DNA from: a bacterium
GTDB taxonomy: Bacteria > Chloroflexota > Chloroflexia > Chloroflexales > Kallotenuaceae
DNA length: 35,836 bases
Assembly (NCBI GenBank): GCA_016781505.1
Contig: JADDQF010000149.1
Coordinates: forward strand, 1-35,836
Direction: 5' to 3'
The translations under genes were made by a program, and so were the position numbers. Positions 10,240 through 16,023 of the stretch are shown here, piece after piece (the first letter of the stretch is position 1; every line of letters starts with the position of its first letter). The notes below the pieces were generated by a model, which did not search any database, was not told the origin of the DNA, and saw only the letters and a list, made by a program, of their open reading frames with translations.

Positions 10240-10270
10240 GGTTGCGGGAACCCGCCGGCAACCGTATAAT
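10240..10270 (+). promoter_or_regulatory. promoter of the J-domain gene, with an overlapping hairpin
   Basis: TTGCGG (10242-10247), 17 bases, then a perfect TATAAT (10265-10270). The same stretch can form a hairpin, GGTTGCGGG (10240-10248) with CCC and GCAACC (10251-10253, 10258-10263), which may also end transcripts from the receiver gene. The promoter implies that the J-domain protein starts downstream of about 10277. Confidence 0.65.
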
Positions 10271-10337
10271 GATAGCCGACCTGGCCACCCCGTCGTCACC
10301 TACCCTGATCGTAGGTACGCCAGGCAAGGAGAACGGC

Positions 10338-11738
10338 TTGGACGAATTCCAGCACCTCGATGACTATGCCTTGCTTGGCGTCTCCTCCGGCGCCACGCCG
10401 GACGACATAAAGCGTGCATACCGACGAGAAATTGCTAAATATCACCCCGATCGTTATCGTGCTGCTGATCCACATACGCAACAATATGTTCGGGAACGTA
10501 GTCAGCGCATAACCGAAGCGTACAGTGCCCTTAGTCGTGGCGCTCGCCAGCGCGCAAGCGCCGCAGTTCGTCGGCAGCCCACCGTTGGCCCTCAAGCAGC
10601 TGGAGCCGCGCAAGTGGATGTGCTGTATCAACAAGCAACAACGCGTTTGCGTGAAGGCCATGTGGATCAGGCCATACACCTGTTGCACCAGCTCCAACGC
10701 ATCGAGCCGTTCTTCCGGGATGTGGCTGAATTGTTAGCCCGGGCTGAGCATATGCGAGCGGCAGCGGGCGTTGCCGGCGGAGCCCAGTCCCGCCGTCCAT
10801 TTGTGTGGCTTGGTGCGGGCATGGTTGGTTTGTTCGCCCTGCTTGTCGGCACCTGGGGAACTGGCGCGTTGTGGGCTGGACGCGTCGCCGACAGTACACC
10901 TGCCGGTGTGCTTGCGCTCGCGTCAGCCGATGCCCCCAGCGTCGCTCCACAGGCGCCCAGCGAGCCACCTCAGCCCTCCGTTGCGCCAACGTCGGCCGAT
11001 CCTCCTGCCAGCGCTGCCGGGCCAGCCGATCATGCATCAACAACAGTGCCGCCCCCGGCAGAGAGTATGCCAACGCCCACCGTCGTTGGGCCAGCCGAAG
11101 TGGCGGTTTCTCCGTCTCCGGCGCAATCGCGGGAAAGCGTAGCACCGCCCGTGTTGGCGCCATCGCCAACCCCGGCCGCGGCTGCAGCCGCGCCGTCCCG
11201 CCGCCCGCTCGCGGTCGAAGGTGGCCGGGTGCTGGTGGCCGACGCTTTCAACGATCCGGGCAGCGGCTGGGCCAATATTCAAGCCGCGACCTATACGCTC
11301 GGCTATCGTGATGGGGCGTATGCGATTACCACGGAGCCGGGAACCGGCTCGATTTTTGCGTTTGGCGCGCCGTTAGCGCAGGGCAACATGGTTATTGGCG
11401 CCGATGTTACTCCTGTCCGGGGCTTGGCTGGCATGATCTTTGGGCCTGACAAAAGTTATCGCTTCTTCATCTCCGGCGATGGACGATTTCGGGTCGAGCA
11501 GCAGGGCAAGGCCCTGGTGCCGCTAACTGCAAGCAAGGCAATTCGCCGTGGCTCAAATCGGCTAGCGATTGCGGCTGCGGACAAGCGCGTTTCCTTGTAT
11601 GCCAATGGTGTACTGCTCACCAACCTGGACTTGCCCGTGTCCTTGGAAGGGACGACCTACGGGTTTGTTGTTCTGGCGGGCCCAGGCGGTGGGGAAGGTA
11701 TTTTTGACTCGCTTTCCGTTCGCACTTTACCGCGCTAG
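10338..11738 (+). CDS. membrane-anchored J-domain protein with a C-terminal sugar-binding-like domain
   Basis: The N-terminus (residues 1-68) is a J domain that stimulates DnaK-type chaperones, with the required HPD at 36-38 (AKYHPDRY). A helical, tetratricopeptide-like stretch follows (about 95-140), then one membrane segment (about 155-180), a Pro/Ser/Ala-rich linker (about 185-300) and a C-terminal beta-rich domain (FNDPGSGWA, YRDGAYAI, RFFISGDGRFRV, VSLYANGVLL, GIFDSLSV) of the laminin-G/DUF1080-like kind seen on the outside of Chloroflexi proteins. The J domain should be cytoplasmic and the beta domain outside. The start chosen is the TTG at 10338, because AAGGAGA lies five bases upstream and the promoter -10 is at 10265-10270; in-frame ATG 10269 and TTG 10242 overlap that promoter. 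The DUF1028 gene follows after nine bases. Confidence 0.85.
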   Translation: MDEFQHLDDYALLGVSSGATPDDIKRAYRREIAKYHPDRYRAADPHTQQYVRERSQRITEAYSALSRGARQRASAAVRRQPTVGPQAAGAAQVDVLYQQATTRLREGHVDQAIHLLHQLQRIEPFFRDVAELLARAEHMRAAAGVAGGAQSRRPFVWLGAGMVGLFALLVGTWGTGALWAGRVADSTPAGVLALASADAPSVAPQAPSEPPQPSVAPTSADPPASAAGPADHASTTVPPPAESMPTPTVVGPAEVAVSPSPAQSRESVAPPVLAPSPTPAAAAAAPSRRPLAVEGGRVLVADAFNDPGSGWANIQAATYTLGYRDGAYAITTEPGTGSIFAFGAPLAQGNMVIGADVTPVRGLAGMIFGPDKSYRFFISGDGRFRVEQQGKALVPLTASKAIRRGSNRLAIAAADKRVSLYANGVLLTNLDLPVSLEGTTYGFVVLAGPGGGEGIFDSLSVRTLPR

Positions 11739-11747
11739 GAGCGCTGC

Positions 11748-12653
11748 ATGGCTCAACACCATATCGCAACGTTTTCAATCGTTGCCCGTGATCCCGCAAA
11801 CGGCGACCTCGGCGTTGCCGTCCAATCTAAATTTTTAGCGGTTGGGTCGGTGGTTCCCTGGGCCCGTGCCGAGGTCGGTGCCATCGCAACGCAGGCGTTG
11901 GCCAACATTGGGTATGGTCCGGATGGGCTAGCGCTGCTGGAACAAGGGATGCCGGCGCCCGATGTTCTTCAGCAACTGCTGGCCAGGGACGAGGAGCGGG
12001 AACATCGGCAAGTGGGCATTGTGGATCGTGAGGGCCGGGTAGCCGCGCATACCGGAACTGCCTGCCACCATTGGGCTGGCCATGTGCTTGGCGAAGGTTT
12101 TTGCTGCCAGGGTAATCTGTTGGCCGGCGAGGCGGTTGTGAATCGGATGGCGGAAACGTTTACCACGTCCGAGGGCGAGCTGGCGGAGCGGCTGATTGCG
12201 GCGCTCGATGCCGGGCAAGCGGCCGGCGGCGACCGACGCGGCCGACAGTCAGCCGCGCTGTATGTGGCCCGCAAGGGAGGCTCCTACGGCGGCATCCTGG
12301 ATCGCTACATCGACCTCCGCGTCGATGATCATCCCGATCCGATCAAGGAGCTGAGCCGCATTTTGCAGCTGCACCGCTTCTATCTTACCCGTCCAAGCGA
12401 GGCCGATCTTGTGCCGGTTGACGCAACCATCGCCGGCGAGCTCCAAGATGCCCTGCGCGACCTTGGCTATTATTCGGGGCCGACGACGGGTACCTACGAT
12501 CGGATGACAACGGAAGCCTTGTTTGCCTACGGCGGCTATGAAAATCTTGAAGAGCGGCTGGTCGAGGAGGCCCGCATCGATAAGCAGGTGCTGGAGTTTA
12601 TTCGCCGTAAGCGTGACGAGGCGCGCCGCGCGCCACGCGAAACGCGGGGCTAG
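11748..12653 (+). CDS. DUF1028 family protein with peptidoglycan-binding-like C-terminus
   Basis: Residues 1-205 match DUF1028, a putative Ntn-hydrolase-like family: HIATFSIVARDPANGDLGVAVQSKFLAVGSVVPWA, then ATQALANIGYGPDGLALLEQG, GRVAAHTGTACHHWAGH and CCQGNLLAGEAVVNRM (described in pieces). The C-terminal part (about 225-290, with LQDALRDLGYYSGPTTGTYDRMTTEAL) resembles the small helical peptidoglycan-binding domain, a fusion seen in this family. The catalytic activity is not established. The gene's AGGAG site overlaps the stop of the J-domain gene (TAG at 11736), so the two are very likely translated from one mRNA. Confidence 0.85.
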   Translation: MAQHHIATFSIVARDPANGDLGVAVQSKFLAVGSVVPWARAEVGAIATQALANIGYGPDGLALLEQGMPAPDVLQQLLARDEEREHRQVGIVDREGRVAAHTGTACHHWAGHVLGEGFCCQGNLLAGEAVVNRMAETFTTSEGELAERLIAALDAGQAAGGDRRGRQSAALYVARKGGSYGGILDRYIDLRVDDHPDPIKELSRILQLHRFYLTRPSEADLVPVDATIAGELQDALRDLGYYSGPTTGTYDRMTTEALFAYGGYENLEERLVEEARIDKQVLEFIRRKRDEARRAPRETRG

Positions 12654-14107: not shown

Positions 14108-15994
14108 CTAGCCGCGTACGACGCCGAAGTACACAACGGCGACGAGCAGCACGACCAGGAGCAAGGCGAGTGCGATAATCAAGATGCGCTCCGAATCGAA
14201 CAAGCTTAGGTCGCCGCGCACGTTGTCGTCAAAGCCGATGATGGCCAGAGTTCGCGGCTTGTTGCGGAAGGTGTAATCCACCTCGGTGACGGGCGTGCCA
14301 CGAATGGTCAGCTCGGCGGCCACAATCCGCGTTTCTTCGCTGACACTCTTGGTTGCCTCTTCGATCAGCTCGTGCAACGGCTGCACGGCGTGCCACATCG
14401 GGTCGTGCACATCGATCGGCCCACTGCTGACCGGTTCGGAGCGCTCTTCAATCGTCCGCTGGGGCAGGCCCTCGATATCGTCGGTGTTTTGCCACAGTCT
14501 GCCCCGCCGAATGAACTGAAACACGCTGCTTTCCAACAGATTGCCCTGGCCATCGCACCGGTCGCACGGCAGCAGCGCTTGGCCGCCGCAGTCGGGGCAA
14601 TCCACGGTTTGCAGCTCCGAGTGCGTCCCCGTCGGCGTTTTAACCGCGCGCTTAATGTCCAGGGTGCCGCGACCCTGGCAGCGCGCGCAGGTGATGCGCG
14701 TCTCGCCTTTGCAGCGCGGACATACGCTGGATTTTTCGGAGTTTGGCACCGCGACTTCGGTTGGCGGTACGTCCGCAAAAGGCTCTTCCGGCACGGGCAC
14801 ATCGATCTGCCAGCGATCCGGCGCCTGCTTGCGGCTGGACACACGACTGCCGGAAAACGGCCGCTCGCGTGTTTCGGGATATGTGCGCGTCTCGTACAAC
14901 ACCTTGAGGTCGTAAAAATAGATGTTGTAGCTGACAACCTGGTCGATGCGAATCGCCTGTCCTAGCTGGCGGCGGCGGACCGGATTGTTGCCGCTCCAGC
15001 TGTCGAGCAAGCGCCGCACGCCTTCGCCGTTGTGCAGCTGGTTGGCTCGTTGTTGCGTGCGCGACAGAAAATCCGCGGTTAAACGACTACGCAGCACGAT
15101 CTCCAACGGATTTTCGAGCCATTGCCCTTCGGTGCCTGCCTCGCTTAGTGCATCGCCACCGCTGGGCTCCACCACGGAACGCAGCGCGCCGCGCAGGGCG
15201 GCAGCTGCTTGCGCAGCGCTGGGATAGCGCAGATGCGGTTGCGGCGCCATCATGCGCCGCAGCACGCGGTCTGCGGGTGCCAGCTCCGGATTTCGCACAG
15301 CGAGTGATGCCGGCTCAATGCCGGTGCCTGGCGGCACGTCGCCCGTAAGCATATGGTAAAGCACAGCGCCCAGCGCGTAGATATCCAACGACGCTTCTGG
15401 CGTGCGATCTTCAAAGGTTTGCTCGGGCGCGGCGTAGGGCGTGAGATAATCGGCCTCGTCCAGCTGCGACAGGTCCGGGCCGTCGGGTGTCGCTGCCAAG
15501 CTAAAGCCCGTCAGGTACGCCTTGCCATCCGCTTGCACCAAGATTGTTTGGGGCTGGACATCGCGGTGAATAATCTGTTGGCGATGCAGCTCGTCCAGCG
15601 CTTGCCCAATATGTGCGAAAATACGGATCGCCAATGGGGGTGCAAGGGGGCCCTGATCGAGCAATGTTTGCAACGGCTCGGCCTTGATGGGCGGCGTCAC
15701 CAAGTAGTAGCCGTAGCGTTCGTCGTGGCCGGCGTCCAACACAGGCACGATATGCGGGTGCTGCACGCGGGCAGCGAGCTTGGCCGCTAGCTGAAAGCGG
15801 CTGACTGCGATCCACCCTGAACGCCGCAGCACATGGACATGGACCTCGCGATCCAGCGTTTGGTGCCGCGCACTGTACGCCATGGCGAGCTCATCTTGCC
15901 CGATGCGCTCCCCGAGTTGATAATTTTTGATCTCAGCTCCCTCGCCGGCAGCCGATGATGCAGCAGCCTTAGCGGGCTGGCGAGAGCTTGCCAT
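14108..15994 (-). CDS. Ser/Thr protein kinase-like pseudokinase with DnaJ-type zinc finger and C-terminal membrane anchor
   Basis: Residues 24-272 have a eukaryotic-type Ser/Thr kinase fold (YQLGERIG; HPHIVPVLDAG; HRDVQPQT; YAAPEQ; DIYALGAVLYHMLTGDVP). Key residues are lost: the ATP-anchoring lysine of VAIK is His54 (REVHVHVL), the catalytic-loop Asn is Thr150, and the DFG motif reads TGFSLA, with Gly163 in place of the Asp. Only the HRD aspartate (145) remains, so this is probably a pseudokinase. Residues 426-485 hold four CxxCxG-type motifs (CPRCKG, CARCQG, CPDCGG, CDRCDG), the zinc finger arrangement of DnaJ. One membrane helix lies at about 598-625, near the end. ATG 15994 has AAGGG upstream and fits the promoter at 16024-16052; in-frame ATGs at 16021 and 16009 lie at or before the predicted transcript start. 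Confidence 0.85.
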   Translation of the reverse strand: MASSRQPAKAAASSAAGEGAEIKNYQLGERIGQDELAMAYSARHQTLDREVHVHVLRRSGWIAVSRFQLAAKLAARVQHPHIVPVLDAGHDERYGYYLVTPPIKAEPLQTLLDQGPLAPPLAIRIFAHIGQALDELHRQQIIHRDVQPQTILVQADGKAYLTGFSLAATPDGPDLSQLDEADYLTPYAAPEQTFEDRTPEASLDIYALGAVLYHMLTGDVPPGTGIEPASLAVRNPELAPADRVLRRMMAPQPHLRYPSAAQAAAALRGALRSVVEPSGGDALSEAGTEGQWLENPLEIVLRSRLTADFLSRTQQRANQLHNGEGVRRLLDSWSGNNPVRRRQLGQAIRIDQVVSYNIYFYDLKVLYETRTYPETRERPFSGSRVSSRKQAPDRWQIDVPVPEEPFADVPPTEVAVPNSEKSSVCPRCKGETRITCARCQGRGTLDIKRAVKTPTGTHSELQTVDCPDCGGQALLPCDRCDGQGNLLESSVFQFIRRGRLWQNTDDIEGLPQRTIEERSEPVSSGPIDVHDPMWHAVQPLHELIEEATKSVSEETRIVAAELTIRGTPVTEVDYTFRNKPRTLAIIGFDDNVRGDLSLFDSERILIIALALLLVVLLVAVVYFGVVRG

Positions 15995-16023
15995 TGCACT
16001 ACCCTTCATGTTTGGCTCCATTC

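Follow-up and report, generated by a model that had tools for sequence, protein, structure and literature searches.

The window, a stretch of 35,836 nucleotides from a bacterium of the order Chloroflexales, carries on its reverse strand a gene whose product, designated P1, joins a pseudokinase domain to a zinc-finger module and a C-terminal membrane anchor. The order comprises photosynthetic and gliding bacteria, with Herpetosiphon, Roseiflexus and Oscillochloris among the named relatives. Two start codons come into question for P1, an ATG at 16021 (637 residues) and the third ATG of the open reading frame at 15994 (628 residues). The latter is probably the start, as judged from the sequence, because AAGGG lies just 5' of it and many P1 relatives begin at the equivalent position. 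His54, Thr150 and Gly163 of the 628-residue protein are His63, Thr159 and Gly172 of the 637-residue protein. The features of the locus are listed below.

14108 to 16021, reverse strand: P1 gene (pseudokinase, zinc-finger module, tail anchor), 637 residues from the ATG at 16021 or 628 residues from the preferred ATG at 15994
15182 to 15925, reverse strand: pseudokinase domain, residues 33-280 (Pfam PF00069; structural model and Foldseek match to PknB)
15833 to 15835, reverse strand: position of the VAIK Lys, His63 in the window's protein; no Lys among 34 family members
15785 to 15787, reverse strand: position of the alpha-C Glu, Ala79 in the window's protein; Ala or Ser in 34/34, Glu in the paralogue P2
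15560 to 15568, reverse strand: HRD motif, invariant in 34/34
15500 to 15508, reverse strand: DFG position, Gly-Phe-Ser in the window's protein; Asp absent in 34/34
15419 to 15478, reverse strand: P1-specific fixed activation segment (PDLS...DYLTPYAAPEQ); its fixed residues are D183, S185, D191, Y192, T194, Y196 and Q201, at all of which P2 differs
14216 to 15124, reverse strand: beta-rich module with inserted zinc finger, residues 300-602, common to P1, P2 and kinase-less proteins
14543 to 14722, reverse strand: four-CxxC zinc finger with BSD2-like spacing 7/26/7, residues 434-493 (alignment, fold match)
14114 to 14194, reverse strand: predicted C-terminal transmembrane helix (tail anchor), residues 610-636 (model, hydropathy)
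10242 to 11738, forward strand: J-domain protein with one predicted transmembrane helix near residue 190; a neighbour of P1 only within the window's family, its link to the P1 system being hypothetical

From the N- to the C-terminus, P1 consists of a short disordered stretch, the kinase domain (33-280), a linker, the beta-rich module (300-602) and the transmembrane helix (610-636). Mean pLDDT of the AlphaFold model is 86 for the whole protein and 92 for the module alone. The kinase fold, described as intact in an earlier note on this DNA, is indeed recognizable: the Pfam Pkinase profile matches P1 with E = 2.3e-22 and 80.1 bits (cut-off 31.7), and Foldseek aligns the model with PknB at E 1.6e-16 and a TM-score of 0.80 (normalised by PknB). 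We aligned the window's protein with 33 Chloroflexales relatives picked without regard to active-site residues, which gives 34 family members. The VAIK Lys and the DFG Asp, which together characterize an active Ser/Thr kinase, are each absent from all 34; the Lys position holds His in 22, Ser in 4, Ala in 4, Arg in 3 and Tyr in 1, and the Asp position holds Asn in 27, Gly in 5 and one Ser and one Met. The alpha-C Glu is likewise replaced, by Ala in 32 and Ser in 2, and the Gly-rich loop is degraded across the alignment. The earlier note had also counted the catalytic Asn among the lost residues, whereas this loss is not general, the position being Asn in 21 of the 34 members, Thr in 8, Ser in 3 and His in 2. 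HRD is kept throughout. No orthologue with a restored Lys and DFG Asp, the observation that would have spoken against a pseudokinase, occurs among the aligned members.

The invariant HRD Asp and the frequent catalytic Asn would fit an unusual nucleotide-dependent activity of P1, such as metal-independent ATP binding or non-canonical transfer, and DLHK pseudokinases, which keep HRD with a degraded Lys and DFG, have been modelled with ATP (PMC12599244). We nevertheless regard such an activity as very unlikely, given that P1 has either lost or degraded its Lys, its alpha-C Glu, its Gly-rich loop and its DFG Asp, with no fixed substitute at the Lys position. Still less credible, indeed hardly so, is a decaying duplicate without function. 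The missing catalytic motifs would be expected of such a gene, but 78 of 82 Chloroflexales genomes, and 56/56 of the good-quality ones, carry the module (genomes with P2 only are counted too), the P1 pseudokinase was found in 54 of 60 relatives by whole-protein search, and the dN/dS of the kinase domain is 0.05-0.21 (six pairs; dS is high in one). Low dN/dS and breadth of conservation refute the pseudogene reading in practice. P1 thus combines a conserved loss of motifs with a maintained fold and purifying selection, the marks of a pseudokinase. Because Lys and DFG Asp are absent from all 34 members, HRD and the eight zinc-finger Cys are invariant and dN/dS is low, P1 is, on sequence grounds, a maintained pseudokinase and not a decaying gene, and absence of phosphotransfer is predicted.

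A whole-protein search revealed a second full-length family with the architecture of P1, which we call P2, in nearly every Chloroflexales genome. This active paralogue had escaped the earlier note, whose pseudokinase, zinc finger and tail anchor otherwise stand. The P2 of the window's genome (L109, G000:C115:16633-18957) comprises 775 residues and is 34% identical to P1; in its zinc finger, the second and third CxxC motifs are separated by a longer insert. Lys, HRD, Asn and the Asp and Gly of DFG are intact in 36/36 P2 copies, with the DFG Phe replaced by Tyr in one, and the Lys of HRDxK is Ser in most copies. In kinase-domain trees, P1 and P2 form two separate, fully supported groups; this tree takes in other kinases of the same genome, and its long branches limit statements on the root. 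Module trees likewise separate the two groups. Such trees would be expected if one kinase-module fusion had been duplicated and P1 had later lost catalysis.

P1 and P2 differ also in the distribution of conserved positions. Across 23 genomes that have both genes, 42% of the N-lobe columns and 27% of the C-lobe columns of P1 reach at least 95% identity, as against 23% and 24% in P2; within P1, conservation is highest in the N-lobe. Residues R39, Q42, E44, L45, T55, R67, W70, A79, L82, A84, P93, V94, A97, D100 and G104 of the N-lobe are fixed specifically in P1. Together with the fixed activation-segment residues listed above, this cluster would look like a putative binding surface.

P2 co-occurs in 51 of the 54 relatives with the P1 pseudokinase. 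It was not detected in genus g19 (G050, G438) or in G039, all of which have the P1 pseudokinase domain; the assemblies are incomplete, but both g19 genomes agree. These genomes rule out a strict dependence of P1 on P2. A different situation is found in four congeneric genomes (G007, G033, G042, G054), which encode only kinase-less relatives (L117-L120) of about 340 residues made up of module and anchor. The four branch inside P1 in the module tree, on a long branch. No kinase remnants were found upstream of these genes, and a search with a close P2 query found no P2 in the four genomes. A kinase-less clade without P2 is consistent with a pseudokinase domain that depends on P2, although it represents about one evolutionary event. 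The genomes of this genus are small, about 3 Mb, and an FtsK/SpoIIIE-like gene is found close to three or more of the four loci. Elsewhere in the phylum, beyond the Chloroflexales, a related module with a longer finger is present in soluble proteins of about 500-620 residues (L110-L116), which lack both kinase and transmembrane helix. The module had no match on plasmids. Chloroflexales-type P1 genes also occur on two public contigs labelled Gracilibacteria and Singulisphaera (L046, L064), which are probably misbinned or mislabelled; in L046, with a contig coverage of 2.4, kinase and module lie in different frames.

The zinc finger is a constant part of the family. Its eight Cys are invariant in 34/34 P1 members and in P2 as well, which bears out the four-CxxC finger of the earlier note; the Pfam DnaJ_CXXCXGXG profile (PF00684), however, stays below its cut-off (20.4 against 32.7 bits), and the finger is only a part of a beta-rich module that spans about 300 residues. 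Nor is its spacing, as had been claimed, exactly that of DnaJ: 32 of the 34 members have 7/26-27/7, while DnaJ has 13/18/10 as read from the alignment. The nearest finger is that of BSD2 (VIA-align, Z 6.2 over 59 residues), with a gapless match of CxxC-x7-CxxC, so that both the pairing of the motifs and the fold of the finger are of the BSD2 type. The BSD2_CRD profile (PF25436) gives P1 19.3 bits, below the cut-off of 27, which the kinase-less L117 passes with 32.1 bits. A structure search for a solved relative of the whole module matched the finger alone; the rest had no convincing match, which in itself does not make it a new fold. At the extreme C-terminus, hydropathy reaches its maximum of 3.4 at residues 613-631, and a strongly hydrophobic window starts 18-24 residues before the end in 34/34 members. 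The single membrane helix that had been proposed is thus predicted for all 34 members, as a tail anchor.

The J-domain gene, which encodes a protein with one predicted transmembrane helix, does lie 2.4 kb from P1 in the window, as the earlier note had pointed out, and it is also near P1 in close relatives (L031, G005). Directly downstream of it, at 11748-12653, the window encodes a DUF1028 protein fused to a peptidoglycan-binding domain. In other families (G021, G010, G026), the J-domain gene is far from P1. A chaperone scaffold, in which a DnaJ-type finger binds unfolded client in cooperation with DnaK and with the J-domain protein encoded nearby, could draw on this proximity and on a finger of the DnaJ/BSD2 kind. 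We consider it decidedly improbable, in view of the BSD2-like spacing and of a BSD2-like finger protein that held clients without DnaK synergy (PMC5818400). P1 itself has no J domain by profile search and is not a J-domain co-chaperone. A DnaK pathway shared through the neighbour is unsupported because the J-domain gene adjoins P1 solely in the window's family, and we have dropped the link for the same reason.

Neither P1 nor P2 belongs to an operon conserved across families; no neighbour is common to the families, and the P1 and P2 genes are not adjacent. One clade has an S41/PDZ protease upstream of P1 on the same strand at seven loci (L047, L052, L053, L057, L058, L066, L072; one profiled), and another has an M50 site-2 protease beside P1 at four loci (L039, L040, L054, L074; one profiled). 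Both proteases are of the envelope type. A function in defence was discarded, PADLOC having matched the generic kinase domain alone.

P1 may be read in two main ways. It could be an independent membrane scaffold, comparable to EssB/YukC or MviN, whose pseudokinase recruits other machinery and for which P2 is a mere evolutionary cousin. Its retention without P2 in genus g19 and G039 and the membrane or processing proteases near it in two clades point in this direction, and the known bacterial scaffold pseudokinases are membrane proteins (PMC12599244). We hold this to be somewhat unlikely, considering the near-perfect co-occurrence of P1 and P2 elsewhere, their identical architecture and a clade without P2 in which P1 is reduced to the module. 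The reading we tentatively favour, at a little less than even chances, is that P1 has been maintained as the non-catalytic half of a pair of kinases, one active and one inactive, and acts as a membrane scaffold or allosteric partner for P2 with a module that binds client. We favour it because the active site is intact in 36/36 P2 copies and lacks Lys and DFG Asp in every aligned P1, in two separate tree groups; because the two nearly always occur together, with a conserved N-lobe and low dN/dS in P1; and because the kinase-less P1 clade is found in four genomes without P2 and the finger is nearest to BSD2. The pair is weakened by the separate locations of the two genes, by the lineages that keep P1 without P2, by the single event behind the kinase-less clade and by an N-lobe conservation that could serve folding or another partner.

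If P1 and P2 do form a pair, the C-terminal helix would hold both of them to the inner side of the cytoplasmic membrane. The pseudokinase N-lobe and the fixed activation segment of P1 might then offer P2, or a substrate common to both, a surface for protein binding or allosteric control, and P1 would set the output of P2. The zinc-finger module may serve as a holding-type unit that binds client or partner, as in BSD2, and not as a J-protein feeding DnaK. A wider proposal, distinctly unlikely in our estimate, is a two-part signalling system in the membrane of the Chloroflexales, in which an active kinase and its dedicated pseudokinase, derived from one ancestral fusion and having the client-binding finger module and tail anchor in common, would form a receptor-like pair and read the state of protein folding or assembly there.

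Bacterial pseudokinases have hardly been studied, and a natural active/inactive pair would permit testing how a pseudokinase controls a kinase. The order that conserves the pair includes the culturable Herpetosiphon, and the kinase-less and P2-less lineages are ready-made natural comparisons. Through the module, kinase signalling is linked to a chaperone finger of the J-domain-less kind, a connection for which we found no earlier description.

P1 shares the kinase fold with PknB-like Ser/Thr kinases, of which PknE is the nearest solved structure by sequence and PknB by structure. Unlike them, it lacks the catalytic Lys, Glu and DFG Asp, has no PASTA domains and carries its transmembrane helix at the very C-terminus. 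The layout of the module, with an ETR/PY.G/WD block before and vTeV.Y after the CxxCxGxG repeats, suggests a putative likeness to eukaryotic SSUH2 (fls485). At least four CxxCxGxG repeats are described for fls485, and SSUH2 is described as soluble (PMC2838759), unlike the predicted tail-anchored P1. BSD2 and ZnJ2, DnaJ-type zinc-finger chaperones without a J domain, have four CxxC motifs with seven-residue gaps inside each pair, as P1 does, and the BSD2-like ZnJ2, which has no J domain, holds clients and shows no synergy with DnaK (PMC5818400); in P1, by contrast, the finger is embedded in a beta-rich module and joined to a pseudokinase and a membrane anchor. A literature search found no published description of this architecture, and a text search of a review of pseudokinases (PMC12599244) found no mention of Chloroflexi/Chloroflexota, zinc or DnaJ. 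The P1 family is real and conserved, and it is an apparently undescribed family of bacterial pseudokinases that has a chaperone-like finger and an active twin. The bacterial Ser/Thr pseudokinase families of that review (ActPs1-3, GLW, CP1, DYD and DLHK, together with EssB/YukC and MviN) resemble P1 in that their kinase fold is devoid of the motifs for ATP and metal and is often followed by a transmembrane helix; DLHK shares the retained HRD Asp as well. What sets P1 apart from them is the zinc-finger beta module, the tail anchor and a paralogue that matches it in architecture and whose active site is intact.
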